Positions 1-64,000 of a stretch of 64,000 nucleotides of DNA are shown here, in pieces. The stretch comes from Physcia stellaris. Its lineage: Eukaryota > Ascomycota > Lecanoromycetes > Caliciales > Physciaceae. Position 1 is the stretch's first letter; each line of letters opens with the position of its first letter. The position numbers were made by a program, and so were the translations under genes. Under the pieces are notes generated by a model, which did no database searches, was not told the origin of the DNA, and was given only the letters and a program-made list of their open reading frames with translations. The stretch lies in the NCBI GenBank assembly GCA_018902385.1, contig JABSSW010000030.1, forward strand, positions 248,001-312,000. Reading direction: 5' to 3'.

Positions 1-299
1 AGTCATCGAATGAAACATTTCGTCGTCGTCGTATTGAGATAGAATCTCATTTAAACATCAATTTGAGAAATCGATTTTCAAAATAATTTTACGATTACGA
101 TCGTAATGTCGAAAAATTGAAATTTCGATTATTTATTTTTTCAAAATTTCGAATGTTTCGTTGACAAATTCGATTCATTCGAAATTAATTTTTTTTTTGA
201 TCATTCGAGTCAAAAACTTGACGAATTTGAAAAATACTTTGATGAAACGACGATAAAAATTGCAAAAATTTACAAAAATTTGCATTTCTTTAATGCAAA

Positions 300-2815
300 T
301 TGAACGAATTCAATTGACGATATTTTGAACTTTCTTGAAATTCATTCGTAAGTTTTCTGTTGATAATATGACGCTCAAAAACGAGATTTTCGTTTGAAAG
401 AATTCGCATTTTTTGATATCAATTTGAAGTTCGATCTTTTTTAATTTTTGAAATATTTGAATGAAATGTCGTTCATGTTCTCGTCGAATTTTGTTGTAAA
501 TAAAAATGTCATTTAAATATATTTGACAAAAATGATTAATGTATTCGAACAGCAAATCGTTCATGTAATGTTGTCAATTCGCCGAACCATTGATCAGCCC
601 GAAAGACAGTACATGATACTTGTAAATGCCTAACGAACATATAAAAATAATCAGATCTTCGCTTTGTGAATCCATTCGAAATTTATTGAAAATCGATATG
701 ATGTCCAATTTGAATAGAAACTTGCAATCTATTACTCGGGCCAAAGTCTCTTCAATCAGCGATATTGAATAACTGTTGCGCTTGATTATGGCGTTCAGTT
801 TTCGATAATTCACACACAGACGAAACTGTCCGTTCGACTTGACAGCGAATAAAATGAACGATGCGTATGATGCTTTGTTTGAATTGATAAATTTCTTTTG
901 AAAATTGTCGTGAAAATATTTTGAAAAATTTCAAACTTTTTAGACGATAGAGAATACACTCGACTTCGTGATAATTGAATCGTGTTTTTCGTCAATTCGA
1001 TTTTGTGATCGTAAAATTTATGAAAAAATAATTTATTTGTTTTTTTGAAATTGAATACGCTTTCGAATCGCTTAAAAAAATCAAAAATTTTTCGTTTCAA
1101 TTTTTCAACGATTGCTTTCATGATTTTAAAAATTTTTTTGAAATCGATATCGAAATCGAATTTTATTTTGATTAGATTTTCTTGAACGTCGTCAATGATT
1201 TCGTTCAGTTTTTTCATGATTAATGAGAACGTTTTGATTTTTTTTTTTTTTTTTTTCGATTTTGTCAAAAATTGATAAACAGCGACGTCGATAAAAACGA
1301 CATTCAAAAACGTTTCGAAATCAAAATTTTGTTCGTCGTTTTCATTATCGAAAGTCGAAATTTTGAATCGTCTATTAAATCGTCGAGCAGATTTTTTAAC
1401 TAAATTCGATTTTCGAACAAAAATCTTCACGAAAATAAACTGTTGAAAATTTCGTATGATTTTAATTCGTTTTTTTTCTTTCGAAAACTTAGCAAAAAAA
1501 TATTTTTTATCAATTTTCTCGATAGCATATCGAAAATTAAAATTCAATATGTTTTTGAAAAAAAATTTCTCGTCGTTCTCGAAATTCTCGACGATAAAAA
1601 AAAAAAATTTAATCTTGAACGAAAATGAAAATGATCGTCTTTGAATAATTCGATATTTTTGAAAATTTATCGATATCGACTGCTTGATCGATGATGTTGA
1701 CGATGAGAAATATATCTCTTTAAAAAAGATTGATCGTTCGCTTTTAGTTCTCAAAATTTTGAACGTTTCGAAATGAAAACAACGATCGAGTTTGAAAATA
1801 ATTTTATCGTTCTTCATATTCAAAATGACTTCGTGAGCGTTCATTCAAAACTTATTCAGTATCAGCGAATGAATTTCAATTCTGATTATGAACATGAGAG
1901 TCGTGATTTTTGAGTGATTCTGCACGATAAGTGTAAAATAAATGACATGAATAATGAACTTAATTTCTCGATCGTCGAATTCATTGACGAGTTTCGATCG
2001 TGATAAAATCACAAAAATTATCTGAAGTGTTTCACAAATTAGTTGCGCAATCTTTTCATCAATGAAAGCGTATTCAGTGACATTTGTATCCACTAATGCT
2101 TGCAAATTATGTTCGTATTTATCGAAAATTAATGTACATTTAATTATTAAAAGATTGTTTTGAAATTTATTGAACGTGCTGAATGTTTTTGACATTGTTG
2201 AAATAAACAGCATTTTCGTCGCGATTTTGAAAAGATTTAGACGTTTTTCGATTCATGAATTGAAAAAGTTTCGTTGCTAATATCATTAGAATAATCATCA
2301 AAAAAATTGAGTCGATTTCGATTTGAAAATTCATTAAAAATTCATTCATTTCGTTGATTGTCAGAATGTTTTTTTCTTGTTTAATTTTTTTGAACAATCA
2401 AATATCGATGATTTTAGAAAAAAACAATTTCGTATCAGATGATTGAAATTTTCACAACGATAACAATTTTTATCGATGTCATTTTTATCATAAAAAATTT
2501 TCATGATCATTTGATCGATGACGAACATGATTTTTTTGACGTTGAACATGTTATCACGAATTACGACTTTGACAATTGATGTTTTGAAAATAATTCGTGA
2601 AATATTTTTGAATGTCGAATTTTCGAAACGTGTGATTTCAAAAAAATGTAATTCTTGATTCATTTTTTCAATCAATTTTTTTAAGTTCTCGATTGTTTCA
2701 AATCGATCGTTACTAACAATGATTCGTTGTAGTTGAAGAATGAATTTTTCGCGAAATTCATCGATCAAATTCTGTTCTGAATAATGAAACAGTTGACTGA
2801 ACAACATCAAAAATT
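300..2815 (-). mobile_element. Ty3/gypsy-type LTR retrotransposon fossil (gag-protease-RT remains)
   Basis: A heavily decayed Ty3/gypsy-like element lies on the minus strand. In element order it shows a gag remnant with a CCHC zinc knuckle (CYRC...H....C, about 2,425-2,480), an aspartic-protease-like stretch (ALVDT...YAFIDE, about 2,050-2,110), and reverse transcriptase blocks (YRKLN, then KFLFKLDIISIFNKFR, then YLNDIFIY standing where YLDDILIY is usual) between about 310 and 815. RNase H and integrase would lie beyond the left edge of the window. LTRs were not found. It is broken many times over and looks old; all recognisable parts carry the island-wide C-to-T decay. Confidence 0.8.
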
Positions 2816-5244
2816 CGAAAAAAATTTCGAAAAGCGTTGATTGATACGCATGATAAGAGTCTTGAACTTATTGCGTACGTTTCGTTTCTTGTTTTTTTCA
2901 ACATAGATCAGAATCAGAACATCAAAGATCATTTAAGAAGTTTTGAAATAAGCAATGTCGATTTTACGTCGAACGAAAAAATGATCACGAGTTTTGTTTT
3001 CGATTCAGTTGATAAATGTCGTTGCTTTGATATATTCGTCGACGAAATGATCAACGTTAACAATGAATTTGTTTTTGATCAATTGCTTTCAAATCTCGTA
3101 AAAAAATCTGAAATGTTTTCACTGAACTTGAGAAAATTCGTCATTTTGACATTTTTATTCTTTTTATCGATCGATGAGCAATGTGAAACTGAAAATTGAC
3201 GTTGTTGTGATTTTTAAAAAATTTATCTCGTTTTGCAGTTTTACATTGCGATTGATCAGTTTAACATTTTCGATTTTGAATTTGATGTCATTCTGAAAAT
3301 GAACGTTGTTGTAAAATTCATTCGAAAAATATTCATTTCGTCACGCAACGTCTGATTATTTTTTTTGAATTTTTCATTTTCGATGTTGAATTTGAATTTA
3401 TCGACATTGAGTTGATTTATATTTCTATTTTTCGTCGAAATAAACTGACGATTTCTCGATTGTGTTTTTTGTTTTTTTCGATTTTTTCGAAATTTTTGAG
3501 CAACGAATTATAGTTTTCTACGTGAACGTTTCAATTTCAAACAGTTTGAATTCTCGCGTCACGATCGATTTTCAATTGATTCAACATCTGCAATATCGTG
3601 AAAAAATTTTTGCGAATTCATTGTTGAAATTGTTCGACGATACAGATGTTTATCGCATGTTTCGCATCGTTCGAACTGTAATTTGCGTCTTTCGAAAAAA
3701 CGTAATTTAGAAAAATGTTTTTTATCAATCTGAATGAATCGACGATAGCGTGATCATTTTTCGAAAAAATTGCTAATTGTTGAATCTGATTAAAAATTTT
3801 GCGTTTAAATTTAGAAAAAAATGATCACAGAAAAAATGTTGATAAAAATAAACATGACTGAGACTTTAATGCAAAAAAAGAATTTCGCTTCAATCGATTC
3901 GGCAATAAATATTCAGAAATAGTCGTGTTCTAGAAACTTGATCGTGAAAAACAACGAAAATAGTGTTATTTCCGGTGAAGTAACTCGTGTTGATTTATGA
4001 TGAATAATTTTTGATGAAACGATGAGTGTTGAATTTCGATTTATCGTATAAATGTTTGTTGATTGATAATCTGACGATTATTTTTGCAATTCGTTTTTCG
4101 ATATATTCGACTTGATACATCGACTTTCGCGATAAACACTTTTTTGAAAATTCTGTACAGCATTAGAGCGAGCTAAGTTTTCTGTTTTTTTTTGTTGATT
4201 CGCTGAATAAAATCGAATCTTTTTGTTCAATCTGATTTTGAGAATGACGTTTTAAATTTTCGTGATTGATTTGAAATTTTGTTTATTGAGTAGATTGTCG
4301 TATCTCGAACAGTTTGAAAAAAATGAATGATTTAAAAATAATGTGAAATGTCATGCATTGATTGAACTAATACATAACTACACGAGAATTTTTAAATGAA
4401 AAGCAAATACATGAGAATCTGTAAAAACATATGTAAAAAATTAGATCGTTTGAATGCGTCAAGACGAATTTCGATTCTAACATCCGATGTGATAAAATAA
4501 AAATGTTAATTCTAATAACTGATCAGATGTTGATTTCAGATGTTGAATTCGATGCACGTTCGTCACATTTTTCATCAAACGCGAATTTTCTGATTTCAAA
4601 ACATCATTATACATCAAACGAAATATTTTATTTTTTTGATATGATGTTTTGTTTAATTACACGTATTTAATGTTAATATTTTACTAATTTTGATTAAAAT
4701 ATCAATTCGAAATTTCGAAAAATGAAATCATGTATCGATTTTGAAAATTTCGATTTCGACGTTTTCGAATTTAATGAATAAATCAGAAAACAAAACACAA
4801 TTTGTATGACAAAACTGCAATTATTTTTGACGATTTTGATAACAATAATCAAAATTCGTCGTTTGCATCGATTTTCATATTGTTTTTCATTTTTCATTTT
4901 TTTTGTTGTTGTTTCAAAATTTTCAATTGTATTTGCAATTGTAAAATACGTTTTTGATTTTGCATCATGAATTGTTCATGTCGTTGTTGATCGATTGTTT
5001 TTTTTTTACGAATTTGAAAACGACGATTTTCGACGTCTGTATTCATACGATGCATACGTTTCATCATTTCGCGTTTTGTTTGTTTAATTTTCATGATTTT
5101 TGTTTCAACAAACGTTTCTGATATGTTCTTTGATTTTGATGATTTTTTCGTTTTTTTCAACTTTAATCTCGTTCTCGAAATCGATATTCACAATAATTTT
5201 CGCTTTTTTGTTTTCGCTTTTTTCACGAATTCGTTCATCGAAAT

Positions 5245-5375
5245 TGCGAAAATTGTTGATTTCGAAATCGCAAAAATTGTTGATTTTTGAATCGCAAAAA
5301 TTGTTGACTTTTGAATCGCAAAAATTGTTGACTTTTGAATCGCAAAAATTGTTGATTTTTGAATCGCAAAAATTG
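5245..5375. repeat. 24-bp tandem repeat, about 5.5 copies
   Basis: A unit close to gcaaaaattgttgatttttg plus aatc repeats about five and a half times with few differences. The 24-bp length is a multiple of three. On the minus strand it reads as an eight-residue repeat close to IFAIQKST. It sits in AT-rich DNA and may be a relic of a transposon gene or a plain minisatellite. Confidence 0.85.
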
Positions 5376-6607
5376 ATATTTTTACGATTTTCGAAATTGA
5401 AATTTTCGAATTCGCAATTTTGATAGAAATTGAAAATTTCGATCGTGTTGCAATTTTTGCAAATGACGAATAAAAACGTACAATGAAATTAATAACGAAA
5501 TCAAATAAATTTTGAATCGATACATCAATTGATTTGATTTTTGCAATGATATCATTCATTTCGAAAAAGAAATCGTCGTTCGAATCGTTGAAAAAATTCG
5601 TGTAAAATTTTTGAATAAACTCGTTGTCGAAAATTTTTTCATTCACACGTTTTTCAAAATTTCTCAACGAATTTTCGATTGATTTGTTAAATCGAATCGT
5701 GAAAAACTTTGATTTGAATAATTCATTTTCGTTTGTAATGTCATCATCGTTTTCGACGATTTTATCGATTGTTAATCAATTTTTTTTTGTTTCGTTTTCG
5801 CTTTTATTTTTTTTTTTTTTTGTTTTTCGTTATTCGTTGTTTCGTCGTCAACAACAACGAACTCGAATTCGATTTGAAAATTTCGCATTTGCGTTTCGAT
5901 TTCAATTTTCGTCGACAATTGTGATTGTTGTGATTGTTATGTGAAAATCAAATCGATACGAATTGATTTGTTCGTTTCGAAAATTATTGAAAAAATGATC
6001 GTAAATAAATCGAAACAAGTGAAATCGTAAATGTAATATCAAAAACACATATTGACATTCGTGATTCAATCGTTAATGTTTTTGCGATATGTTTTTCATT
6101 TTCAAACGAATATTTGTGTTCGTTGACATCAAAATTTTAATTCGTGAATTCAATTTTTTCGCGTGTGTTTTGATATTTGATATACATGTTTTTCAATTTG
6201 TTCAAAATTTTCGAAATCGTGATTTCGAAATTCATTTCGATAATAGCGATTTTTTCGAAACATTTTTTAACAATTTTCGTTTTATCGTCTTTGACGAAAT
6301 CACATCAATTGAAAAATATTGTTGTTTTTGATTTTTTCGAATTCGATATGAATACAACGAATTAATGAACGAAAATCATTTTTTTTCAACAATCATTTGA
6401 TTTTGAATTTTTGAATCATTTTGTTTTGAAATTTGAAATGCAATAAAAAAATCGAATCGAACAACGCGTTCTAAAAAGTAAACAGTCGATTATTTGCATG
6501 CATGTAAAAATCACACGCTAATTTAATTAGTGCAAAAATGCAAATTTACATTCAGAACATCGAGCTAGAACAGCTCGAAAAGTGAAATTGATGAAAAATG
6601 CGAATTT

Positions 6608-6702: not shown

Positions 6703-7277
6703 ATGGAAAAAATTTGGTGTGAAAACCCCTAATGAATCGTTGAGGGTTCAGGGTTGTACTGGAGATATCTAACGCCTTATGATTTTGGCATTTTCAAGGA
6801 GATCTTGAATGTTGGAGATATCATAACCCTCGTAGCTCTTGGGAGAACGCTGTGGTTAGACATGGACGAGCGTCTTTTGAAATTATTAGGTATTCATTCT
6901 AGAGCTTGCATGTAGTTGATCTTGGGCTGGGCAATAAACTTGGTACTGTGCGTTTGTGGACTGTTAGTTGATCAGCTGAACACGAAATACAGGCCATCAA
7001 TCTACGTAGTTCCTCCCAGATTTGCAGTTTGGTGATCTGTACTAAGATAATGCGTACCATCTCAAACTCGATACTTCAATCACAGTCATAAGCATTGTCT
7101 CATGTCTATCAGGGGTTTTTGGCCCTACATCATTACCCTCTTCCCTTGGACGCTGGTCCACGCTGATTCATCCTGTCCGGTCCCCGTGAACTCCAAATGC
7201 ATCGACAAAGGCCGCCTCACCAACGCTAAGATGCCCACATCCCGTAGCAGATGACCGCCTGACATGATTTCCAAAGC

Positions 7278-10200
7278 TCACCTACCCCTTCGATAAGCCT
7301 CGTATCCCGTCTCCGGGGGCGTCTCGTGACCTGGTAGATTCGCGTAGCCACTCCCTCCTGTTCGCCACCTATCGAGCCCATACTGTTCGTGGCCGGCCTC
7401 TTCTCCGGCCGTATACATCCCAGGGGGCTGCGCTCCATTCAGAAGCCTGCTCTCGCTGTCGTTACGCATATTGTACATCCCAGCGCCTAAATCAGCAGGA
7501 TAGACGTCTCGATATCCAGGAAGCGGTTTTCTACCAGCAGGACTCTGCGTCCGACTATTGCTAGGACTTCGACTTGAGGCACGCGAGCTGCTCAAGCTGC
7601 TGTTCTCACGACTCATAAAGCTCCGAGGCGTGCCGCTGCGCTCGGAAATCAAGTCCTGCGGCCGCCCGAACAGCTCGCCATCACCACCAAACTCATCCTT
7701 GAAGTCGCTACGATCCATGAAGTAGCCGAAGTCAAGCTTGCCCTCAGGCACCACCTCAAAGAGATCCTTTTCTTTCTTGTTGGGTGCAAAGCGCGCGGAT
7801 TTTCCAGGGTGGTCGCGGGACATTTGGTTCATGGCAATGTCTGAATACCCGGCGGCAATCGATGGAGCTCCGTCTGACTGTTGGTGTTGCAAGCGGCCAC
7901 GGTATATTTGGCTTAAGGCTTGTTGCGCTTTGGCATGAACCATGGGTGTCATAAGCGGTTTGTAGAGCGCTGGATGCCCAAATCGTGAAACAACTCTGTC
8001 GCTTCCTTTACGGGCTTTCTGACCTGCTTCGGCAAGGCTAGACGGGTCTTTGAGGGTGGCTTTCGTGTAATAGGCATTCTGGTCGTCGAAACTACGCGCG
8101 CAGTAATATTTGAAGCCAAGCAGCAAGGGAAGGAGTGGAGCTATGCAGATGATCATAGTCCAGGTTCCATTAGCTTTGAGAACAAGGGCGAAGATGAAGT
8201 TGGCGAGGAACGTGGCAAAGATAAAGCGATTGAAGAGGATACGCCAGTATTGGCCGCCAGACTCGGTCTTGGTGATGAAGACGTAAAGGAGCAGGTATTT
8301 CTTGAGCCAGAAATCGACAGTAAAATAGAGCGCCGTGACTGGGAGACCTAGAGGCTGGAGGGTGGTAAAGCAAAGTGCTACGGTGGCGTAAAAAAGGAAA
8401 TAGTTGTAGTACACCGCATAATCGAACGGAGGAGGGGCGGTCCATTCGATACTCTGTCGAGGGGTTGGTGACATGAACGTCCGACCAAACCATGTCCAAG
8501 TGAGAGAAATTATCTGGGCCAGGTCTGCGGCGGCTCCTAGGTTACGTTGCAGGAGATAGGTTAGCCAAAAGGTTGACAGCTGTGACAGACCTGTCAGCAA
8601 GTCGACGAAGAATTTAGAACCTTTGATAGCGTCCCAAGTGCTCTGGCCTGGTGCTTTAGTGCCGGTCAGAGAGGCTATGTAATGCCATAGTATTCCAAAA
8701 ATGGAGAAGACTATGAGATTGTTGAAGACGAAGAATGCATAGAGCCTTGTAGTAACATGACGTTCGCGCACAGTTTTGCTGACATCGCCGGCCCTAATCG
8801 AAATGCGGCGGAATATGATAGGTAACACGAGGTATATGAGCGAAGTTAAAGCTGGGGACGCTATGCCTTGGACAATTGCCCAGGACCTGGGATGTGCGTT
8901 CAGCTGTCTCTGGAAAGCAGGCCATACAGCCCCAAGAGTTGAGAAGTTGGAGAGAAAGAGCGCAATCAATGCGTTGGGTGCAATCCAAAGGAATGTTAAT
9001 AAAGCTATCCAGAGATTATTCATGACTCGTTTCCAATTTCTGGATTTCCTGGACAGTGGGAGATTAGGCCATATCAGTTCATTTGGCCTTGGTGCCAATG
9101 TAATAATCACACCCTTAGGTTGCTTTTTTCTCGCTGCGTAGGCGACTGTGTGGGCTTCCTCAATCCTCTCATAGCTGGCGAAGCCATACGGCATTGGATT
9201 GCGCTTGTCTACCCCCTCTCGCACAAAGTCAATTTCTGTCTCAAGCTCCTTAATTCGGTCAGTGAGGTAGTCAATAGCATCGACCTTCCCGCCGCCGTTG
9301 CTCTTTCGGTACTTCTTCGAAGGCTTAAGAGTCGGACGGTTGGCAGGCAACCTGTCAGGGTTTTTCAGATACTTAGAAAGGACGGACTCTAATTCTCGGA
9401 CAGCTTCTTCGTGTTGTTCAATCAGATCTGGGAGCTCTTTGACGTTACGGCCAATCGCTGCTCGTGGCACTCCGGCCGTATGCTCAATCCCATCGGCGAT
9501 TCCCATGATGCCCTCATCGGTTCTCGATTTTGGAGGAATGTCGATAAACATCAAAGTCCTCGAATGTAGACTTTGTAAGTAGTCAGTACTCTCAAAATAC
9601 TGCCTCCGTAGCCTTGTAATTGCCATATAGTTCCGCCAGAGGAAAAAGCATATGACAACGTCGATCAGATAAGCACAGGCAACGTGAGCCCATAATGAAG
9701 AATGTTTGAACACACTTGCTGGCGTCATATATGCAAAAAACTTATTCGATCCTGATCCCTGGACAGTACCTTTGGCGGTACCAATGGCATTCGCCGGTAT
9801 AACTACCCCAATACCAACAATGCTCGCAGCCAGGAAGATGTTTCGGCACATCTTGGTGAATCTTAGAAACACGGCAGCGTCGAGTCCAACCTTTTCCACG
9901 ATTTGTGCTTCTGTGATGTGTGCGACGGGACCAAACCAGGCAAACATTCCTGCGCCTATCTTGGGCGGTGCGTGTTTCTCATCCGCATACTTCAATTTTG
10001 GGGCGTAAACAACTGAATTATGTGGTCGTAGCCATGAGAATATTGCCGTAATCAGAATCATCGCACCGAGAGAATAACCCAGAGCTGCCCAAAAAGCGGT
10101 GCCTTGAACCTGGAGATGGGATTAGCTACTGTGTCACTAGAAAGCCTTCTCTGGATTTTGCACCTCTGTGTTGAAGGGATTCTGTATCAAACAGAAAAGT

Positions 10201-10292
10201 TTGTCGGATGGATTCAAGTCATTGAAAGCCGTACAACAAGAGTCTCCACTTGGAGTCTTTGCTGACTGAGATACCGCTGATTTGCAGTCCAT
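7278..10292 (-). CDS. CSC1/RSN1-family (DUF221, OSCA/TMEM63-like) membrane channel
   Basis: The predicted protein of 986 residues belongs to the fungal CSC1/PHM7/RSN1 family, which are multi-pass calcium-permeable, osmosensitive channel proteins. Exon 1 (10,292-10,164) starts MDCKSAVSQS and ends NPFNTE. A 54-nt intron (10,163-10,110) joins it in frame to VQGTAFWAALGYSLGAM, the family's first membrane segment. The long second exon carries the RSN1 N-terminal membrane region, the cytosolic domain with the usual ASYERIEEAHTVAYAARKK-like stretch, and the seven-helix channel core (for example SPALTSLIYLVLPIIFRRIS and LPVTALYFTVDFWLKKYLL). A Ser/Arg-rich, proline-containing cytosolic tail follows. 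The start is chosen because its ATG has a good context and the joined frame matches the family; the long open frame alone would begin inside the first helix. Some RSN1 members have been linked to exocytosis. The gene is intact. Confidence 0.9.
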
Positions 10293-11484
10293 GGCGAGAA
10301 ACGAGCGAATGCCTTAACGCCCTGGCAAGGATTCCAAGGATTTGCAGAGGTAGGGGGCTTCGGGAGGCAGACGCCTAAGGTTGTAGACGCTCTAGAAGGA
10401 AGGCATTGAGGTGATCATGCTGACTTGCTGAGGTCGGAAAAGAGGTGCAGCGCAGGTTGGGGCCTTTGTCGCTGTCAAGGTGGGGAGTAGACAATGGAAT
10501 GAGAGTGCTGCAGGTACGATGTAGGGGACAAAGCCAGTTGCCGTACGATTAGTAGAGAGGTTTAGAGAATAAAAGTTGAAGAGAGCTGGTCAGAAGATCG
10601 ACGAAACAGATGCTGGTTTGGAGGAGGTGGTCAATAAAATCCTGGACAACCTAAGCATCCAGATCTCCACATGCACATGGATCGGCAGAAGCGGACCGAT
10701 TGGAGACTCTATTTTTAGCACTGCCTGCAGCCCTAACCGTTAGGGTTTTCCACGCCAAGACAGATCGCGTATGGTGCCTGTGGCGCTGATATGAGGTCGC
10801 AGCTTCCTCTCGTGGTCACCTTCCAGTCAAGCATAGTGATTGACACAACCACGCTACCGTATCATCATCTCACCGTCAAACTGATCTTCGAAGCAACATT
10901 ATTCGGAGGCACCGCGGTGTAAGAAAATTATATGTAATTCCCTATCTTTATGTCTCCTGTATGATTGAAGAACAGCCACTTGATTTGATCCATTCCGGGA
11001 TAAGAACATACGGCATCTCAGCTTGCAGAATATGAATCTCTAAATTCAATTCATTTTACATACCTATAGCTGTCAGCTTGCGGCGTTCCATTTTGTCCGT
11101 GGGCGGATGAACTGGTCCTCAGATGACTTACCTTATTCCCCCTGAATTGTCCGGATTCGTGGTCAAATGGCACTTGATCAGGGGTTCGAGACATCCAGCC
11201 GTTCGATAACGTGTTGACTCAATCTGCATGTTCCAACGTACTCATAGACCCGGATTGGCGTCTTTTTCCTTCCGCTTGGCTTCACCGTTGGGTTCCCTGT
11301 AATAAATTCACATTATTCTATGCCTTGATGTGTGTGATAACTAAAGGATGGATGCTTACCTACATGTTTAATGATGCGGTCCTTCGGAGAGCTTACCTCG
11401 ACTACCAATGAGGCGAGAACCTAAACTGCGTGTGGATGTTTCTCTAGGAGACCTCAGAAGATGGTCATTCGAAGTACACATTCA
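10293..11484. other. Intergenic region upstream of the CSC1-like gene
   Basis: About 1.2 kb of normal composition without a supportable gene. It probably carries the promoter of the CSC1-like gene and the 3' end of the bL9m gene. The only distinctive site seen is a telomere-repeat-like palindrome at 10,731-10,745. Confidence 0.6.
10731..10745. promoter_or_regulatory. Palindrome of two telomere-type repeats (CCCTAACCGTTAGGG)
   Basis: Two 7-bp arms, CCCTAAC and GTTAGGG, are perfect inverted copies around a single C. Each contains the fungal telomere unit TTAGGG. It lies about 440 bp upstream of the CSC1-like start codon. In fungi internal TTAGGG sites can bind Tbf1/Teb1-type Myb proteins; a regulatory role here is inferred from the pattern only. 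Confidence 0.35.
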
Positions 11485-12418
11485 TCATCCTTGCGGCTCC
11501 GATTCAATGTCTTCTTGCGCCGTTACGACAGCCGTCCGTCGTATAGCTTCTCCGCCTTTTACAAGGATGTCCACTCTAAAGCTACCAAGTGCTTTTATTC
11601 TGTCTGGTTCAAAGCCACTTGCTTCTCCATTGTCTTCCACAATCTGGACATCTTCAGGACCGAGCACGATTCTGGACCCCTCTTCGTGTTGTGCGAGGAT
11701 CGACTTTACCGAGTCCGAAATATCAGCTGTCGAGACCGATCCGTAAATCATTGTGGGTTTGGGCTTTGCTTTAGCCGATGATTGTAGAAGGGTTTGGATG
11801 TCTGGTGTCTGAATAATCTTAGGTGACGCTGCTGGACTTTCGTTCTCGTGAGTTACAATAGGCGTCCTGTAGAAGATAAGCTCCGGTGGAATAACAGCAG
11901 CCATTATCTCTGTTGCTCGAGTAGGCTAATGCAATCGTCAATACCCGGCCCTTTGTGTTGAGTAGGGTACGCTTACAGATAAAAGCTTCATTTGGACCTC
12001 TACCATCTTTTCTTGTTCCTCTTCCTCCTCCACCGTTTCTTCCATGCCGAACATAACGTCACGCTCAGCCACAACATCACCCATTTCTTTCAGTTGCGAG
12101 CTCGTTATGTACAACGCCTTGTGCTGTGGATGCCATACGTTTCGCATTCTCCCCGGGGCAACGGCTATGATCGAGCCTGTGATGGTTTGTTTAGTTATCA
12201 CCGATCAAGACACAAAGCCAACACTTACCGCGTCGACCATAGCGTTTGATATCCTCCAAGAGCTTGACTTTGATTGTGGATGGAGCTTTGGCGACTTTCT
12301 TCTTTCCTCTAAGCTGCTGGTGAAACGGCGTGGCTAATTTTTGGGTATCCGCCACCATGGTTGTTCTTAAGCGCTGAAGACAGCCGTGCGCCCTTGGCAT
12401 ACAAGTGAGATTGGCCAT
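11485..12418 (-). CDS. Mitochondrial large-subunit ribosomal protein bL9m
   Basis: The predicted 270-residue protein has three exons: 12,418-12,229, 12,176-11,977 and 11,907-11,485. The introns are 52 nt (GTAAGT...CAG, branch ATAACTAA) and 69 nt, and phases 1 and 0 keep the frame. The joined sequence carries the bL9 signature: KVKLLEDIKRYGRRG runs straight into SIIAVAPGRMRNVWHP across intron 1. A short mitochondrial-type leader precedes it, rich in basic residues and ending near RGKKK. The long C-terminal half (IPPELIFYRTPI onward) is typical of fungal mitochondrial versions. bL9 sits on the large mitoribosomal subunit. The start MANL is chosen; an in-frame ATG at 12,457 is an alternative. 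It is transcribed away from the Ubp16-like gene. Confidence 0.85.
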
Positions 12419-12802
12419 TGAAGATGTCGAGCATGGATCGCAATGCACCAAGTTCAATAAAGTATGGATTTGATTCTACGTACCTTAAGGCCAATCAAAC
12501 CGAGTAGCTAGACGCTAACCCTGATTGGCCTAGCTATCGGCAATAAAGATGCATGTGAAAGCCTGCAACCTAAAATAATGAAAACCATCTGATACTCAGT
12601 AACGGCTGCAGTTCGCTTCTGCATTGCTTGTCTCGGAGTTCTGAAAAAGCCGGGCATGGTAAATCTACTGTTGACCCAAGCAAGCAAACAACAGATACTA
12701 CCTACAATTTCATGCTGACTGTGCCCAGTGAGCTAATCCTAAAATCAGGCCAGATGCTCAAGCACATATGAGGCAGTCTTTGCAGCTTCCCTTCATGGCT
12801 GA
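12419..12802. promoter_or_regulatory. Divergent promoter region between bL9m and Ubp16-like genes
   Basis: A gap of 384 bp separates two start codons facing away from each other, so both promoters must lie here or overlap the leaders. No TATA box or specific operator was recognised. Both products are expected at mitochondria, the ribosomal protein inside and Ubp16 at the outer membrane, which would fit shared control; this is inference. Confidence 0.5.
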
Positions 12803-39895: not shown

Positions 39896-39929
39896 AATAA
39901 TACGTCTATTCTGATCATTGCGACGTTGT

Positions 39930-53690: not shown

Positions 53691-56047
53691 ATGTGTGGAA
53701 TCACGGCTGTTTTAAGCCTCACTGGTTGCCATGCCATGAATGGGTGCTCATGTTCCAAGAATTTGGAAGGAGCGAAGCAAGACCGCGAGGCTTGTAAGCG
53801 TCGAGACCCGAGCGGAGAAGGCGTCAGTACACAAGAGCAGATGAACGGTAGTCTAAACGCTATAAAGCACCGTGGACCGGACTCACATGGTAGCTGGGTC
53901 AGTGCTGATGGAAAAGTTGGTATGTTGTCTTGCTCTCAAACAAGTATAGGCTCCCCTTCTGAGCTTTGACAAGCCCTGGGTAGTTGTCGACTGGAGATCA
54001 ACGACCTTAGTCCTACAGGGAACCAGCCATTTCAAAACGCTGACAATACTGTTCATGCCGTTGTTAATGGCGAATTGTATGATTACCAACGTATCCGTCA
54101 AGACATGATCAATAAGACAGGGTACGTTTTCCGAGGAACAAGTGATTGCGAGATTGTTGTTGCCTTGTACGAATACTACGGGGTCGCCTTTTTGTCCCAT
54201 CTCCGTGGAGAGTTCGCTCTATGCCTATACGACTCAAATCGGCAACTATTCCTCGCATCTCGAGATCGAAGTGGCGTGAAACCACTGTTTTGGACCATCG
54301 TTGATAACAGACTGCTTCTTGCATCCGAGGCAAAGGCACTGCTGCCATACGGCTGGCAGCCCGAATGGGATGTTCGTAGCATTGTGACTAGTGCTTGGCT
54401 CACTGAAGAGAGGACGATCTTCAAAGGCGTCCAGAAAGTCCGCCCAGGCTATTACATGACTTGTATCGGCTCAGCCTTTATGACACAACGACAGTATTGG
54501 GACCACGACTACCCTGACAAACATAAAATTGAGACACGGAATGTTGACGAAATGATTGAAGGTGTTCGCTCTAGATTATTGGAGGCAGTACGGATCCGGC
54601 TTCAAGCGGATGTACCCGTCGGTATACACCTTTCGGGTGGCATCGATTCCGCCGTCATAGCTGGTATGGCGAAGCATCTCCTTGACACTGGTCAGGCCAA
54701 GCTTGGTTCGCTTGACACGAATCAGCAATTACAATGTTTGGGGGTCGCGTTTGATAAGGATAGTGGGTACGATGAGTCTGGTAATACTCACTAATTCGTT
54801 AACGTGGACAAGCGCTAATAAGATTGAAGATGTTGCAAAACGCACGTCAGATTGGCTTGGCGTCGATTTTCAAACCGCAGATATGACCGAGTCCGTATTT
54901 GCCGACAACTTCGAAGATGCTACCTGGTATGATGAGCAGATTCACACAGACCTTGGTTTCGTTGGAAAACATGTACTATCGAAAGTGACGCAGGATAGTA
55001 ATTTGAAGACAATACTCAGTGGTTGGTCTTCACATTTACATACACAATAATAATGCTGAGCCAACACAGGACAGGGTTCGGATGAGATCTTTGGCGGCTA
55101 CCATTTCCTTGTACCAGATGACTTGCGAGAGCCAGATTTCTCATGGCCAGACGAGACGCCACCAGAGCAGTTCAGAAAGGTCCAGTCTGCAATGGCACGA
55201 GAACCGTCTGCGACGCGCGCGAAGCTGGGCAAGTTCGAGGCCGAGTCCCTACAGCCGCATATCTCACCTCAGTCGATGGATGAAGCACCGGAGTGGGTAA
55301 AGTTAATTCAAGGTTTTACCCGGCAACCTGAATTCGCTTCTTGGACTAAATCATTGGGTCGAAGTTCCATTACTGCGATCGTCATGGAGGATATCAGTGA
55401 AATGGTGAGACAGCAAATGAGAGGCAAATGGCACCCACTCCATTCCGCCTGCTATATGTGGAACAAGACTTTTCTATCCAATATTCTCCTTACAAATCTT
55501 GGCGATAGAACGGAGATGTCACATTCCGTCGAGGGACGGGTACCTTTCCTTGATCATCATCTCATGGAATACGTCAATGGTCTGCCCCCAGCCTCAAATT
55601 CCGGTATGATCCGGCTAGTAAGACGTTGACCGAGAAGTGGATATTGAAAGAAGCGAGCAAGCCGTTCATCACTAAAGAGCTGTACGAGCGTAAGAAGCAT
55701 GTAAGTATTTCACCTAATGAGCACAACAATAATCTATACCAAAGCCAGATGATATTTGATGGATGGGATGAATTCAGTCTGATTGAGAAGTCTTACTAAT
55801 CATCTACAAGCCCTACTCATCACCCGTCACATATGCCGTCAATGGACCTATGTACAAGCTTTTCCATCGGCTAATTACCAGGCAAAACATCGAGGCCCTT
55901 GGTTTTGTAGATTGGTCGACAACAGGAAAGACACTTCAGGAAGGATTCGAGGAACAAGATCCAGTGAAAATGCGCACAGTTTGTGTTGTTGCTCAATATG
56001 TAGTATTGGGCCATAAGTTTGGCATCAGAACGGCAAAGGTGGACTGA
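53691..56047 (+). CDS. Asparagine synthetase (glutamine-hydrolysing), with one frameshift
   Basis: The enzyme makes asparagine from aspartate, ATP and glutamine. Five exons are inferred: 53,691-53,919; 53,974-54,780; 54,830-55,021; 55,070-55,700; 55,811-56,047. The product would be about 698 residues. MCGITAV supplies the N-terminal nucleophile Cys2. The glutaminase domain shows HRGPDSHGSW, LGSCRLEINDLSPTGNQPF and VVNGELYDY. The synthetase domain shows VPVGIHLSGGIDSAVIAGM (the ATP-binding SGGxDS loop), SGQGSDEIFGGY across intron 3, HSVEGRVPFLDHH and KTLTEKWILKEASKPFI. All key motifs are present. Within exon 4 the frame shifts by one base near 55,590-55,605, between GLPPA and KFRYDPASK; no intron explains it. 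It is therefore either an assembly error or a recently damaged gene. Confidence 0.88.
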
Positions 56048-56819
56048 ACGAGTAAAAGCTGCTTTTGGGACTGGGTCTGAACTTGGCCCGGAGCCCATGC
56101 TGTTACAGAGAAGTAATTTCATCTTGAGCCATCATTGCCCTGTTGGTGTGGGTTCTGTGAGCCTTTCACATGCTTGGTTACTTCTTGTCACTATAGTTGA
56201 CAGGAACAACCAGCTCCCCTTTGAAAGACAGAACACGATGATTGGGGACTCACAATGGTCTCATGACCACTTTCAAAGTCTCCTTCTGTCTACATAAATG
56301 CAGATCTATAACCATAGGCATGCCTTTCTTTGTTTCTTAAGATGACCACGACTTGCTCTAGGTGCTGCGTGATGGAACCAACTTATTAGCTCTGAATAAC
56401 AATATTAGGACAATAGGCTAGACGAACCGTTGATCTAACTAATATTAGACATCCACGAAGACGTTGCATGGCCAGTACTGGTACAACTCAGTAGCGCTGA
56501 AATTATCTACCCCCCTTTGTGCTATTTCGTGGCTTGAACGCTTTTCCGCGATCGAGATCTCGGTTTGCCAGAACACGAAAGTCAGGATCCACATCTAGCA
56601 CGAGACCGGACCGCGCGGCAAATACCGAGTGAGCCTCGCGGTTCTAGACGCGTCACTCCCATTTTCTCTTCTTCAAATCGAACACTTGCTTTGGTTTCAT
56701 CTCGACATACCAGACAACAGCTGCTCTCCCATTTTAGTTGCAAGTCATACAACTCTCCATTCCAGCTTCTCTGAGTAGATCATCAATCGTACATCATTTC
56801 CCAGCAAGTTCCCGATACA
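56048..56819. other. Intergenic region, nothing recognised
   Basis: About 770 bp between the asparagine synthetase gene and the MYND gene. It should contain the former's 3' end and the latter's promoter and leader. No feature was recognised. Confidence 0.6.
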
Positions 56820-58853
56820 ATGTCGGGCCCAGGATACCAGGTTGTTGTGGCGCGCCTCATGGAGAATGGACAGGACGACCCTGCAATTAAGGCAGAGTTC
56901 AATGAGCAATTCGGTACTCTGATGAACATCATTCGGACTACCTACTCTGCAACCATGATCACGGATGTGAAATCGCTTGACTTGAGGACGATGTTCCGTC
57001 CCAAAGTTATTCTCTTAGTTACGTAAGACACACCCTTGCCCATCCTGTTCTTCCGTTCTTAATCAACGTATCTATCCGTGAGTAGACGAGCTAACCCCAT
57101 ATCTGCTTCAGCGAAGAGGTCACCAAACCTGCACATGTCAGCAAACTACACAAACCTCTGGCGAGGTATGTGCAGACAGGGGGCACGCTAATCCTATGCT
57201 GCTGGTTTGTCACCAAGTCTACTACCTGGGCCATCGAAGGCTTCTTGTGGGAGTTCACTAAGGAGTGGAAGATCGCTGAAGGCACGGGGGTACGTACCGC
57301 GACGTATCGCTATTTCTAAACTGCAACTACTGATCATCGATGAACAAACAGGAGTATGGACGCACCGACTTACGACTTAACCCATCTAGAACGATGGAAG
57401 CGAAGTTCGGCAGCGACGCCTTCAAGTTCATCGAGATGTCGTATCCACTAAAAGCTGTACATCTAAAAGGAGTGGCTGGGGACGATCAGATCTATGTTTC
57501 AGGAAAAGAGTTAGACTATCCAGGGATTCGAATCACGGGAGTGTTCGAGGACACTACGCCGTCCGCCTTTCGGAGGCACGGCAGTGGCTATTTGGGGTAT
57601 GTGGGAGATACGGAGCTTGAACACGGTACTCAGGCTTTGATTGTGGCGATGTTAGGTAAGTCTTAGCTTTATTCGCGTTGGCAAAGATCGAGCGCCCTTA
57701 ATGACGGGCTCTTTGTTGAAAGTTTAAGGGGTTTCTCTTCATACGGCGAAGGCGGGACTCTAATTGTTCGGCTTCTAATGTCGAGACTTGATCTGCTCTG
57801 AGTACTGATCCAGCAATTACAGAAGCTGCTATGAGATCCTCCCTACCTAACAACCACAAGCCTCCACGTCAGATACATCCCCTTCCACAACGTCCACCCA
57901 AACCGTTAGTCACACCCAATCCATTACTTTTCAGTACTCAGAAGGGCCCCGAGTCACATCCTGACCGCATGGCAAGCCGCGTCGTTGCCTCGAGTCAAGC
58001 AACAGCAATCCCAATCCGACCAACTCAACCGCATCTCAAAGTGACCACGCTACCATCAATGTTACCCGTCGCCCGCAATGACATAACGGCACTTCGCCAC
58101 TTCGAGAGAGATGGATCCGAGGATCCCACAGACGATAGCTATGGCGGCGGGTTCAAGACACCAAGCATCCACACCGATTGCTCGGGACCGCCCGCTCCGA
58201 ACTCGGGCTTTCGTGACTATCCAATGGCTCAAGACTGGCATACCGCTGGGACAGAAATCCACCGTCCTTCAGACGAGGCCCAAGACCATAAAAGTGACCA
58301 GCCTAATCCAGAGAGAGATGATGCGCCGACAAATGAGGCAGATCTTACTTCAAACAATGTGACTAAAAGGGGCGGGGGTGAGGATGATGACTCACTTTAC
58401 AATGCATCCATCAACGGCTCTAATGACAAGGCCGCAGTCCTTCACACCACTGACGCAGCAGTCAACTCCCCATCCACACCAAAACCCACCCCCAGCTCCA
58501 GCCGCTACAAAAACAACAACCACAATCACCACAAGACTCACATCAGCAATCAGGCCTATCCATCTCGGAACAGCGTCACCAAGCCGTCCAACCAAGCTCT
58601 CGTCCAGTACCAAAGCAACAACAATACTCATTCCCCTGATCCCGATCCAATGCCAGCACTCACACCCTGCAACCCCGGCTGCGCAGTCTGCACCATTTTG
58701 TTACCAGCTATGAAATGTGTTGCTTGTAGGAAGGTGCAATATTGTTCGGCCACATGCCAGAGGGTGGATTGGGAGGAGCATAAAGTGGTGTGTAAGGCTC
58801 AGGCACAGGATCGGGAAAGAGTAAATGGGAACGGAGGCACGAGCTCGGGATAG
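56820..58853 (+). CDS. MYND zinc-finger protein
   Basis: Four exons (56,820-57,022; 57,112-57,289; 57,352-57,655; 57,814-58,853) with introns of 89, 62 and 158 nt give 574 residues without a frame break. The first 230 residues form a compact, probably fungus-specific domain (QVVVARLMENGQDDPAIKAE, TLILCCWFVTKSTTWAIEGF, SYPLKAVHLKGVAGDDQIYV). A long low-complexity Pro/Thr/Asn/His linker follows. Near the C-terminus is a MYND finger, CAVC...CVACRKVQYCSATCQ...H...C, a zinc-binding protein-interaction module. The protein stops shortly after the finger, right at a 34-bp tandem duplication, while a long open frame continues in another phase. So it may have lost about 150 C-terminal residues. Function unknown. 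Confidence 0.82.
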
Positions 58854-58870
58854 GGTGAATGAGAACGGGG
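58803..58870 (+). repeat. 34-bp tandem duplication at the end of the MYND gene
   Basis: Units 58,803-58,836 and 58,837-58,870 match at 26 of 34 positions. The first is read in the MYND frame (AQDRERVNGNG) and the second in the next frame (ARARDRVNENG), giving nearly the same peptide. Because 34 is not a multiple of three, it switches phase and brings a stop at 58,851-58,853. Confidence 0.75.
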
Positions 58871-59319
58871 TTGGGTTGTGGAAGCTTCCTCGAAAGGAGA
58901 ATCTGGCTGCGATGGTAATCGCAAGGGACATGAACGCAGAGGAGTACGAAATGGTCTACTTACGGGATCAGCAATGGATGAGGCGGCATGATCTCTGTTT
59001 CCGCAATGCCGTGTCAGAAGTGTACACTGTCTTGCAATTTCTTCGTTATAGGCATCATGGGAGAGGACGGGAGATTGATTTTGTGGCGATTCACGTCTTC
59101 GGCTTACAAACTCCACAAATTGGGATCAATTCGCTTTCCATGTGTGAGGCACTAAGCAATGATCGGGTTCGTGAGAAGGATGACGGGGAAGTGCACAAGA
59201 TAGTGAAAGGGCATGGAATGGAAGTTGCGATTCCTGGAGAAGATCGAAGACGTGTTGTATTCTACATAAGAGGAAACCAACAACGAAGTCTAGGGTATTC
59301 TTACGGGCTGCTTTGGTAA
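58825..59319 (+). pseudogene. Out-of-phase open frame following the MYND gene
   Basis: 164 codons overlap the MYND stop in a different phase. The stretch looks protein-like: GLWKLPRKENLAAMVIARDM, MVYLRDQQWMRRHDLCFRN, REIDFVAIHVFGLQTPQIG. It most likely once formed the C-terminus of the MYND protein. It could instead be reached by a splice I did not find, or be a separate short gene without its own promoter. Confidence 0.4.
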
Positions 59320-59497
59320 TTCAGTAATTTAGTGCTGACACAGCTGTGGCTAATCGGGACTGTGGAGCGTGGCAAGCATGCTTTGTTGAGGAAATCCTAC
59401 ATCATTGTCATGAACAGCAGGATAGAGTACTACCATACCGGTAACGCAGTCTCGCGGCGAATCCCATCGCTAGCACCACTCCCCAATGTCAACAACA

Positions 59498-60849
59498 TCA
59501 GACCTTCGTCCCGTGCGCGAACGCCCCAAACTTGTGGCTCAATGCCATAGCAGCGGCCAACTGCGTCTCGCTTGCCGCCGATCTGTTGAGTATGGAACCC
59601 GTAGGGACGCCCATCGGATAAGGACCGAAGACGAGTACCCTTTGTAGGATGAGAGCAAAAATTTCCCGAAAGATCGCAACCTGTGCAAGAGTGAACGAAG
59701 GTCTCCCTGGAAAATTGAAGACGATGGGGTGATAATGCGCGAGCCCCCGAGGATAAGCATTTAGCACTATGTCCGGCGGGCAATGGACGGCCTGTTTGGG
59801 TAGTTCGTGTAGGTAAAAACAGTCGAAGGTAAACGTTGGACCAGTTTGGTACACGGGTCCCGTCCATTTCTTCCACCCAATAATATCGGTTATCGTGAGA
59901 AGAGCTCGGCAGTGCTCTATAGAAAGCCGTCGAGCTTTCTTCCGGCCATGTCTTGTGCGAAGTCTGTTATAGTAGTTGAATAATGCGGCGCCAAGATCAG
60001 GAGGTGGTGGACCGCCCCCTATAATGCTCACTTCTAGCCACGCCAGACTGCGGGGTGGTGGGACTTTTTCAGGAGGTAGTCCGACGCCGCGTCTCCGCAA
60101 CTCTTTGAAGGTTTGCTTGTTGAAGATCTCTTCTCGACGATCGAAGTAGGCTCGAGAGTAAAGTGCGGAAGCGCGGATTAAAGCGTCTAAAGACTGCATA
60201 TCGTGGAGCTCTCCCAGTACCATCAGCTTCAACTCTGTAGGAAGACCATCCAAGCTGGCAGGCGGATCCGGTAGACGCTAACAAAGGTTAGCACAGTCAT
60301 GTCCATGACGGAGGAAGAGGGTTTCCATACTCTTCCTGATAAAGGGTGGAGATTACAACCGTCCATCTCGATCAGGCTCGGCCTACAACTTGGAACAAAC
60401 TGAGATACAGGCTGAGTTTTGGATCTTCGCATCGGCCGCGGATCTTTCCGTCCTGTTCCAAGAGCCTGAATCAGGCAGTCATCGGACTTAGATGCTTCGG
60501 TAGAATAGTTTTCAAACTTCACACGTTTCCGTTGTTGGACGGGGCCGCTCTGGAGCGCACCATGTGATTTGATAGCCATTCCACCACTTTGACTGATCGA
60601 CCTCGTCGGATGGAGCCCGGTCGAGGCTCTATATGTGTTCGAGGCATATTTTGAGGCATAGTCCGTGCTCTCGGGTTTCGCGGTTCCGTCTCGATGATGG
60701 GCGCTTTTGCGAATCGAGAGTCCAGACAGCAGCTTCGGCAGTTGAGCCAGATCATCAACCAACGGATCGCCGAGTCTTTTTCTAGGGTTGTGTCTAGGCG
60801 GCTTTGCTTCTGACAAAACGCTCGTCGATGACTGATCATCGGCTTCCAT
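59498..60849 (-). CDS. F-box-like protein, local paralogue family member 3
   Basis: Two exons (60,849-60,331 and 60,277-59,498) with a 53-nt intron (GTATGG, branch GCTAAC, TTAG) give 432 residues. The N-terminal 170 residues are basic and disordered and include LLSGLSIRKS, echoing KLSIR in member 1. The splice joins HPLSGR to RLPDPPASLDGLPTELKLMV, placing the F-box-like block at the start of exon 2. Next come SLDALIRASALYSRAYFDRR, EIFNKQTFKELRRRGVGLPP and CRALLTITDIIGWKKW, aligned with members 1 and 2 but more diverged. It is the last gene before AT-rich island 3 and convergent with the MYND gene. Confidence 0.72.
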
Positions 60850-61179
60850 GATTAGCTACAGGGAACGTACACTTTTGAGCACTGTCCTGCCGCGAAAAGG
60901 AACTTTCAAGCCGAATATATGTCATACCTTGAAGTGAAAAATGTTAAGTACTAATCGATGTTTGCTCGGCTGTTATGTGCATTACGTCACACCATTCTAC
61001 AGGTGATGTTACAGGTATGTAGGGTGCAACGTGCTTATTATTCATGATAAAATACTATCTACCGTACATGTGATGAATGTGAATTATTGTACAGAGTTTG
61101 CACGCTAATCTATAACAGAATAACGTCTTGACATTGTCTTTGATGATGAGTTTACTTCAACACTTTCTCTCGAATTTGC

Positions 61180-64000
61180 AAAGATATAGAATCATGATGT
61201 TTAATTCATTTCGAGCATGTCGATAAATCGTTGATATTTGAACGAAAATAGAAATTTGATGAAATCGTCGATTGACATGATGTCGATCGTTATGTATTTG
61301 AATTCAATGCGATTTTTTTTAATTTCGTTTTTTACATAATGATATACGATATCGACGTGCTTGATGCGATCATGATGTATCGAATTTTCATGAATGTTTT
61401 GACGCTCTGATTGTCAATATTTATCAATATTTTGACGTAATTGTTCGATTGATTTTGAGTTCGTAAATCAACGAGTAATTGTTTGAATCAAATAGTTTTT
61501 TTGACGACGAATAATATGATCATATATTCGGCGACGCAAATAAACGTGATCACGATAAATTGAAATTTTGATATTCAATTTATCGAATCGTCGTTTAATA
61601 AAAACAAATATGTTTCGATGAATTTTCTGAAAATTTTGTCACGAGTTCAGTTCGCATCGCAATATGTCTCGATGTTTAATTTTTTGTTGAGATTATCGTC
61701 GTAAATTATGCAAAAATCGATCGTGAAATTGAAATAAATTATAACACGCTTGATTGTTTTGATATGATTAAAATTGAAATTCTGAACAAATCGACTGACT
61801 ATAAAGATCGCATTCGTTACATTTGATTTGATTTCTATCATTGCAAACATGATTGAATTCATTATTGTTTGATATTGTTTGATATTTTGATCGATAATTT
61901 GATTAGCGTTGAAAATTGAATCAAATGATTTTTTCATGAATGTTCGAACTGATTTCGCATTTTGTAAATCGAATTTTTTAACAACGCGTCAATATATGTT
62001 TTTTGATTAAAACGAATTATGTGCATTTCGCGATTTTTGAAAATGATCATATCAAAATAAAAATTTATTGATTCAAAATCAATCATATCGAAAACGCTAT
62101 TGAGTTTCGTTTTTGCTTTATTAATCATGATTTTATTGAAAGCAATGATTTTGATATTATCGACTTATGTAATAATGATAAAATTTTTGAAATCAGCATT
62201 CGTGACGAATATGCTCTGATTTGCGTCGAAAAAATTGAAAATTAGTTTTTGTAAAAAAATTCGAACAGACGTTTATATCATAGTCTGAATGATTGTTTCA
62301 GATTATACAATGTTTTGTTCAACTTGCAAATAATCTTGTCATTGTCACATTCAATCGAATATTTAACGTAAATATTTGAATCAATGAATTCGTATAAAAA
62401 CGCAATTTTCACGTTCATTTGTTCAATTTTCAGATTCAAAAAAACGACAACGACGAATAGAACTCGAAAATCGTTGATTTGACGACGAAAACAAAAATTT
62501 GATCAAAATCAATGTCGTATTGTTGTAGAAATTTTTTGACGCATCATTTAATTTTGTATCGTATTACAACGTCATCGACATTGCGTTTGAGTTTGTAAAT
62601 TCATTTATCGTTCAACGATTTTTTTCATCGAACGTGAAATTTACTAGATTTCAAATGTGATTTTTCGATAAAAAATCGAATTTTTTTCATTGTTTCTAGT
62701 CATTGTGAAAAGTGAAAATTTCGTGCGATGTCGTTGTAATTATTTGATTTTTTTTCGTCGATCGTCAGCATTGCTATGAACTTTTCAAACGAAAAAACGT
62801 CGATGTTTTCGACGTAATCGATCAACAATGAAACGAAATTGATCGTATCAAATTCAGCGTTTGTAATTGAAATTGATTGAAAATCAACAATGCTGTCGAA
62901 TAAAACAATTAAATCATTTGAATTTGAATTTCAATTCGCGAACAATTCACGCATTGTTAAATGAAACATCGTGAAACTGACAGAAATTATGACATTGTAA
63001 ACGATAAAATTCATAGAAAAATTTATTCGAATTGTCTTTCTGTCTGAACGCATTGTAACGTATTTTTGTGAAATTTTTTGAAAATTTTTTTGTTGTTAAT
63101 GACGTCACTGATTTTTATATGATGATATTTGAAAATTTGATTTTGATATGTGATCGAATTTCAATGCTTTGAAAAATTTGAGATTGAATTTCTTTTTTTT
63201 TGCAATGAATTCAGTGTGAATAACAGAAAAATTTATCATTGTTAAATCAACAATTGATTCGATAAAATTTTCATCGAATTCGACGTCAATTTTTGATGTT
63301 GATTTGTAATCATAAATATCGAAATTTTTGACGCGTTCGATTTTCTGATTAATCGATATGTAAATTCGATAAATGATGCCATCGTCATATTCGATGAAAA
63401 TTTTTTTTCGACGTTCGATTTCAAATGATTTTTGATTTTTTTGTTGATGACGACGTAAACGATTGATTCGAATGAATACATGTTCGTCAATTTCGAAAAT
63501 TGTTCGTAAATATTTTCGAACGATGATTGATTTTTCAAATACGAAATTGAACGTCGATTCTTGATATACGTCATTGTACGTGTGATGTCTGATCACAAAA
63601 ATTCGATATGTTTTTCGTCAATAACGTTGTTTTGATCATGATGATGAAAATGCGTTGATGTGTTTCGATTACATCATTGACGTTTTGAGCATTTGTTGAA
63701 ATTGAATCAATTCAATGTTTTGATTGTCAAAATAATTGATTGATTACGTGTTGCGAAATTCGCTGTCATAATTTGTACGTACGATTTTGACGTCAACATC
63801 GAATTAACGTTTGATTCAATTGATGTATTTAATAAAACATTGTAATCACTCGTGCTTGTTTTTGACGATGTATATTTTCGTTCAACGTGACTTGTCATCG
63901 ATGATATTAATATAATAACGCTCATTTTCAAAGTTTTCGATCGTTATTGATATTAAATCAATGTGAATAATATGAAACGCTTTTTCGACATGATGAGTAT
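61180..64000. other. AT-rich hypermutated island 3 (continues past the window)
   Basis: The composition drops at about 61,180 and shows the same pattern as islands 1 and 2, with C almost only before G or A. Apart from a Ty1/copia fossil on the minus strand no feature was recognised. Confidence 0.8.
61200..64000 (-). mobile_element. Ty1/copia-type LTR retrotransposon fossil, partial
   Basis: The late part of a copia-like polyprotein is readable on the minus strand. A reverse transcriptase end with the INFYFDMIIFKNREMHIIRF and QKTYIDALLKNSIYKM blocks lies at 61,934-62,128. The YQTIMNSIMFAMIEIKSNVT then VSRFVQNFNFNHIKTIKRVI blocks lie at 61,647-61,937, and RNase H-like traces extend to about 61,200. 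Frames at 63,105-63,596 may be the integrase to reverse transcriptase linker. The element runs beyond 64,000. It is broken many times and old, with the same C-to-T decay as its surroundings. LTRs were not seen. Confidence 0.75.

Follow-up and report, generated by a model that had tools for sequence, protein, structure and literature searches.

Dense C-to-T mutation at CpC and CpT in repeated DNA of Physcia stellaris suggests a variant of repeat-induced point mutation

In the RID-dependent repeat-induced point mutation (RIP) of Neurospora crassa, C-to-T changes fall on CpA, CpT, CpG and CpC in proportions of about 64:18:13:5. RIP-like mutation strikes TpCpG in Microbotryum and CpG in other basidiomycetes, while methylation induced premeiotically (MIP), the work of Masc1 in Ascobolus immersus, methylates cytosines without mutating them. 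Deamination by AID/APOBEC enzymes also leads to hypermutation and is often strand-biased. The RIP target is usually taken to be CpA, with CpT or CpG variants, and the indices used in surveys are built on the loss of CpA and the gain of TpA. Herein, we describe three AT-rich islands in a window of 64,000 nucleotides from Physcia stellaris (contig JABSSW010000030.1 of assembly GCA_018902385.1; C30:248001-312000) in which C before a pyrimidine (CpY) has largely been lost and C before a purine (CpR) has been kept. The genome searched comprised 43.97 Mb in 147 contigs. The RIP preferences known to us are for CpA, CpT, CpG or TpCpG; in none of them is CpC the first target, with CpR almost left alone.

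In this genome, dense C-to-T change has affected both strands of repeated DNA, at C before a pyrimidine. As in the RIP of N. crassa, duplicated DNA is struck copy by copy, gene blocks are spared and a RID-type methyltransferase is encoded (here a putative one, assigned by sequence signatures); unlike in that system, where CpA is struck most and CpC least, the targets are CpC and CpT. With the RIP-like mutation of Microbotryum and other basidiomycetes the islands share repeat-directed C-to-T change in a non-CpA context, but CpG is here the least struck context. MIP likewise joins an enzyme of the RID/Masc1 type with duplicated DNA, whereas here the bases themselves are changed, and methylation without mutation was rejected on account of these heavily changed repeats. 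AID/APOBEC deamination resembles our case as C-to-T hypermutation and differs in that the target here depends on the 3' neighbour and that both strands are struck. Overall, we regard the process as a variant of RIP with a mutation spectrum that is very cleanly supported.

The islands are interspersed with gene blocks and have a GC content of 0.26-0.28, against 45-61% per kilobase in the blocks. Together they span about 13.4 kb (about 1-6600, 39950-43900 and 61000-64000), so the original prediction, which assigned RIP-like hypermutation to the whole of 1..64000, was drawn too wide. The islands and the gene blocks used as controls are as follows:

1..6600, minus strand: island 1, a CpY-depleted repeat running past the window start; GC 0.275
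39950..43900, strand unassigned: island 2, CpY-depleted repeats; one CC/GG remaining in 3.95 kb
61000..64000, strand unassigned: island 3, a CpY-depleted repeat running past the window end
7201..39300, strand unassigned: gene block without CpY depletion by dinucleotide counts
46301..60800, strand unassigned: gene block without CpY depletion by dinucleotide counts

With strands pooled, the islands contain 1.9 CC and 18.2 CT per kb against 56.8 and 66.4 in the gene blocks, and 64.4 CA and 54.3 CG against 66.8 and 54.2 (block 44201-60800 served for these densities, block 46301-60800 for the shuffles and the observed/expected ratios). Island density thus stands at 3% of the gene-block value for CC/GG, 27% for CT/AG, 96% for CA/TG and 100% for CG. 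Taken singly, island 1 has 1.3 CC, 19.8 CT, 59.5 CA and 57.1 CG per kb, and island 3 has 0.5, 15.4, 68.0 and 57.6. Base shuffles, 300 per island, never reached the observed values: CC+GG counts in islands 1-3 were 17, 1 and 3 (shuffle ranges 212-296, 113-165 and 93-150), CT+AG counts were 257, 114 and 91 (591-705, 349-428 and 257-333), and CA+TG and CG exceeded all shuffles. The gene blocks are unbiased, with observed/expected ratios of 0.94 for CC, 1.07 for CT, 1.08 for CA and 0.90 for CG, and the ratio (CpC+CpT)/(CpA+CpG) comes to about 0.17 for the islands and 1.02 for the blocks. Before A or G, TpC is retained (ratios of 1.92 for TCA and 1.73 for TCG). Among 13 AT-rich stretches measured, TA/AT was 0.36-0.50 in 12 and 0.68 in the thirteenth, and (CA+TG)/(AC+GT) was 1.26-1.55 in all 13. 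The claims made from the letters of the window, that CpC and CpT are lost while CpA and CpG are kept and that TpA does not exceed ApT, hold, and the first bias is stronger than had been claimed.

Copies elsewhere in the genome stand at different stages of this process. In the most advanced ones, CpC is gone and CpT nearly gone: L004 and L005, 3.3 kb each, have no CC, 0.2-0.5 CT, 49-51 CA and 59-61 CG per kb. L084 is intermediate, with 10 CC but 57 CT per kb. We also sampled 200 kb (bases 200001-210000 of contigs C1-C20) cut into 400 half-kilobase stretches, of which 18 were below 36% GC; relative to the 379 stretches above 42% GC, these had 0.03 of the CC, 0.15 of the CT, 0.89 of the CA and 0.87 of the CG.

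The mutation spectrum could be read directly against an unmutated relative. Two GC-rich retroelement copies, L033 (C5:1165000-1168500) and L034 (C12:58800-62300), Ty3/Gypsy-like by eye, are about 95% identical over 3.5 kb, and the roughly 5% of differences between them have no marked context bias. A probe of 501 bases of L033, for which the best 40 of 208 candidates were scored, matched 38 sequences other than these two at 76-86% identity. Rows 3-18 of these 40, that is, the 16 least changed copies, were aligned to L033, leaving aside gap columns and positions whose next base carried a change other than C>T or G>A. Each copy shows 63-109 C>T/G>A changes, 0-8 reverse transitions and 0-2 transversions in 399-502 columns; L071, for example, has 105 such changes, no reverse transition and no transversion in 499 columns. 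Pooled by next base, C had become T at 757/796 CpC, 696/1008 CpT, 44/1059 CpA and 6/793 CpG sites. CpY accounts for 1453 of the 1503 changes, whose CpA:CpT:CpG:CpC shares are 2.9:46.3:0.4:50.4 percent, an order nearly the reverse of that in N. crassa. Corrected for saturation, the rates at CC, CT, CA and CG stand at about 100:39:1.4:0.25; CpC changes some two to four times faster than CpT (ratios of 1.9-4.1 in the seven copies computed), while CpA changes about 70 times and CpG about 400 times less than CpC. The 5' base has little effect, the changed fraction of CpY being 0.79 after A, 0.87 after C, 0.71 after G and 0.84 after T, and that of CpR 0.017-0.033 across all four. In an earlier comparison of island 1 itself with L033, C>T fractions were 0.70 at CC, 0.64 at CT, 0.26 at CA and 0.22 at CG; these figures are blurred by the distance between the two, whose better stretches are no more than about 80% alike even with C>T allowed for, and closer copies were therefore used.

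A second, independent set of sequences comes from the element that adjoins island 2. It has TG...CA ends to its long terminal repeats (LTRs), a GAGAC target-site duplication on both sides and a purine-rich tract before the 3' LTR; with LTRs of about 200 bp in 1.94 kb, it lacks the length for a complete coding set.

43909..45850, plus strand: LTR element of about 1.94 kb, GC-rich and lightly mutated
43909..44108, plus strand: 5' LTR, with less change than its partner
45650..45850, plus strand: 3' LTR, at an early stage of the process
45851..46214, strand unassigned: AT-rich flank of the LTR element, with CpC almost lost and part of CpT remaining; 45851-46156 repeats 43284-43588 in diverged form

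The two LTRs of one element were presumably identical at insertion. In this pair, aligned as slices extending a few bases beyond the LTRs, the 15 C/T differences have C as the next base in 11 cases, T in one, C/T in two and A/T in one. Among the best 40 of 89 matches to 43905-44150, there were 11 same-strand pairs lying 1.6-1.9 kb apart; leaving aside gap columns and stretches below 85% transition-tolerant identity, 158 of their 176 C/T differences lie at CpY. The next base is C in 87, T in 48, C/T in 23, A in 6, G in 3 and otherwise mixed in 9, and the sites differing within pairs make up 34% of CpC, 16% of CpT, 2.4% of CpA and 1.6% of CpG. Taken with the spectrum against the unmutated relative, the LTR pairs bear out the expectation that aligned repeats would differ mostly at CpC and CpT. 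The outcomes that the original prediction had named as fatal to it, changes lying mainly at CpA or gene blocks sharing the bias, did not appear. Its statement that CpA is spared needs qualification, as some change does occur there.

Duplicated DNA is struck and unique DNA spared, as judged from a small sample of five repeat probes and one gene-block probe. At least 40 genomic matches were found for the probes from island 1 (bases 1-300; best 40 of 253 candidates), island 2 (41001-41400; best 40 of 44), island 3 (62001-62400; best 40 of 41) and the GC-rich LTR element (43905-44150; best 40 of 89). The probe from the L028 island was multicopy as well, and the four island probes and the LTR probe each had 40-45 matches listed, self included, while the gene-block probe (18001-18400) matched only itself and is single-copy. 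CpT changes occur on both the plus and minus strands in all 16 aligned copies. These copies carry 16 different CpT patterns, and the median pair differs at 25 of the 66 sites (range 8-44), where independent hits would predict 28.7; the copies were therefore struck largely separately, after they had spread. The scarcity of other substitutions points to a change that was fast and recent.

The frames noted within the islands include the following:

367-840, minus strand: reverse transcriptase in island 1 (RVT_1 match, C30:248367-248840)
2361-2867, minus strand: CCHC zinc-knuckle (gag-like) frame in island 1, recognised by eye
63105-63617, minus strand: 170-codon frame in island 3, from the frame listing

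Island 1 also has a 24-base tandem repeat at 5218-5399, within a 195-codon frame (5188-5775, minus strand), and PHM7 and DUF7025 are among the protein families matched. Along with the DIM-2-like and RID-like genes and the MAT alpha-box match described below, such families would suit a filamentous ascomycete.

TGG is the one codon that a CpY change can turn into a stop (TGA, when a CpC of the opposite strand is struck), while CpA changes give TAG and TAA. In the best 150 of 527 candidate reverse-transcriptase matches, we counted 250 TGA, 33 TAA and 3 TAG stops; TAA was found in 26 matches and TAG in 3, and 10 had no stop at all. CGA could be the source of part of the TGA stops, yet CpG is hardly changed. 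Six matches were fetched as possible counter-examples (L081-L086), three with TAA or TAG and three of the ten without stops. All three of the former are CpY-depleted; of the latter, L085 is CpC-free with reduced CpT, the intermediate copy L084 was described above and L086 is unmutated. As had been claimed for peptides from the islands, the 344-codon frame at 813-1844 (minus strand) lacks Pro, Gly and Trp altogether and keeps 11 Gln, 7 His and 21 Arg. In a 905-codon frame of an unmutated relative, the potential stops are 36 Gln codons (CpA), 22 CGA codons (CpG) and only 10 Trp codons (CpY). From these codon counts and the genetic code, it is plausible that long frames survive CpY mutation.

Such evidence induces us to consider a form of RIP whose sequence preference is unusual and almost inverted as the explanation of island mutation, with a probability of roughly three in four. 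The original prediction had suggested looking for methyltransferases of the RID, DIM-2 or Masc type, and a whole-genome search of the DNA methylase family did yield four matches in three genes, one DIM-2-like and two RID-like. The DIM-2-like protein, on C3, has DUF7893 above the cut-off and a weak BAH match below it, and its best structure-bank match is 9bap (608 bits), which we take to be Neurospora DIM-2. The RID/Masc1-like proteins are encoded on C5 (L011/L012, C5:497355-501292; at least 798 residues, the 5' end lying outside the fetched locus) and on C6 (L009, C6:790057-794028; 513 residues), and agree at 39% of the 307 positions that could be aligned in the catalytic part. Each carries the catalytic motif PPCQ together with EQT or EET in motif VI, presumably the RID/Masc1 signature, where the DIM-2-like protein has ENV. 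Once short introns are removed (one in C5, two in C6), the spliced models are readable and the final motifs intact. The two genes look intact and divergent, and in both an intron follows the residues IAS at the same position.

DNA methyltransferases typically choose their target by the 3' neighbour, while AID/APOBEC deaminases read the 5' neighbour; for this reason, we favour an enzyme of the RID type. One or both of the RID/Masc1-type cytosine methyltransferases would recognise duplicated (paired) DNA and convert C in CpY (RpG on the opposite strand), probably during the sexual phase; the genome has a MAT alpha-box match. The switch from CpA to CpY would then be seated in the RID-type enzyme or its working partners, and a duplicated RID is an obvious candidate place for it. 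It is tempting to go further and suppose that a duplicated RID-type methyltransferase has been re-specialised for CpY in this fungal lineage, giving an inverted RIP that can run to completion, clears repeats of CpC and almost all CpT while leaving CpR, makes stops only at Trp codons and keeps long frames; to this tentative version we would give slightly less than even odds. The two paralogues may also share the work, one acting, for example, on CpC and the other on CpT.

Several points weigh against RIP of this kind. The copies L033 and L034 coexist unmutated, although an always-active RIP should have struck a pair so alike; their survival points to a process limited to a life stage through which these copies have not gone since spreading, or else to a leaky one. 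At 44/1059, CpA is struck weakly, and it looks like a true target because the hits are scattered (of 69 CpA sites, 47 are unchanged in all 16 copies, and the most-hit site is changed in five). An older alignment of eight copies shows the context order but is blurred by divergence: among columns with an invariant next base, the variable/invariant counts are 81/56 for CpA, 53/94 for CpG, 109/0 for CpT and 3/0 for CpC, so that many CpA and CpG columns vary amid much ordinary divergence. CpC is not fully removed, as 21 CC/GG are left in the three island cores, and the stretch 582-830 of the reverse-transcriptase region holds 12 of the 17 that survive in island 1. This patch may have escaped or been replaced. 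Not all AT-rich stretches fit neatly, since L031:1-1000 (C19:200001-201000), with GC 0.18, 17 CG per kb and the TA/AT of 0.68, is unlike the other islands. The 18 low-GC stretches make for a thin genome-wide sample, as 15 of them lie in a single island (L028), two in L031 and one in L017. Finally, the two methyltransferases are putatively RID by sequence signatures, and stand as candidates for producing the C-to-T changes.

Among other explanations, a cytosine deaminase, AID/APOBEC-like or of an unusual fungal kind, might act on exposed single strands after recruitment to repeats or reverse-transcription products. Almost pure C-to-T change at high density would suit such an enzyme, and the search, which covered the cytidine/dCMP deaminase family PF00383, gave eight matches at the family level. 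The best of them (C64:178666-179121) has four TGA codons inside, reflecting introns or a mutated pseudogene. The specificity, however, lies in the 3' base, the 5' neighbour hardly affecting CpY (0.71-0.87) or CpR (0.017-0.033), which led us to reject AID/APOBEC as such; CpT changes on both strands in 16/16 copies are also unlike the deamination of retroelement minus-strand cDNA. We consider a deaminase unlikely. Slow decay, in which CpY methylation of the repeats (by a DIM-2-like enzyme, for instance) is followed over long times by spontaneous deamination of the 5-methylcytosines, gains something from the DIM-2-like gene and from the habit of DIM-2-type enzymes of acting on silenced repeats. 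Against it, the surplus of 63-109 C>T/G>A changes per copy over 0-8 reverse changes and 0-2 transversions speaks of a burst, and CpG is the least changed context; such decay seems improbable. Ordinary CpA-preferring RIP, or no RIP at all but AT-biased drift or ultraviolet-type dipyrimidine damage, accords with the low island GC and the C-to-T changes but is scarcely credible, given that CpA is not the main target (4.2% changed against 95.1% of CpC; 6/176 LTR differences before A), that TA/AT is low in all but one stretch, that stops are mostly TGA rather than TAG or TAA, and that TpC before A or G is kept (0.024 changed), unlike what ultraviolet-type damage would leave.

Because TA/AT is low and (CA+TG)/(AC+GT) lies at 1.26-1.55, a fungus with CpY-type RIP would be scored as RIP-negative under the usual cut-offs. 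The ratio (CpC+CpT)/(CpA+CpG) is offered as a simple replacement index. The effect of RIP on coding DNA is altered as well, with fewer stops and with Pro, Gly and Trp lost. Finally, a natural switch of specificity, accompanied by two candidate enzymes, would make the question of how RID picks its cytosine a testable one.

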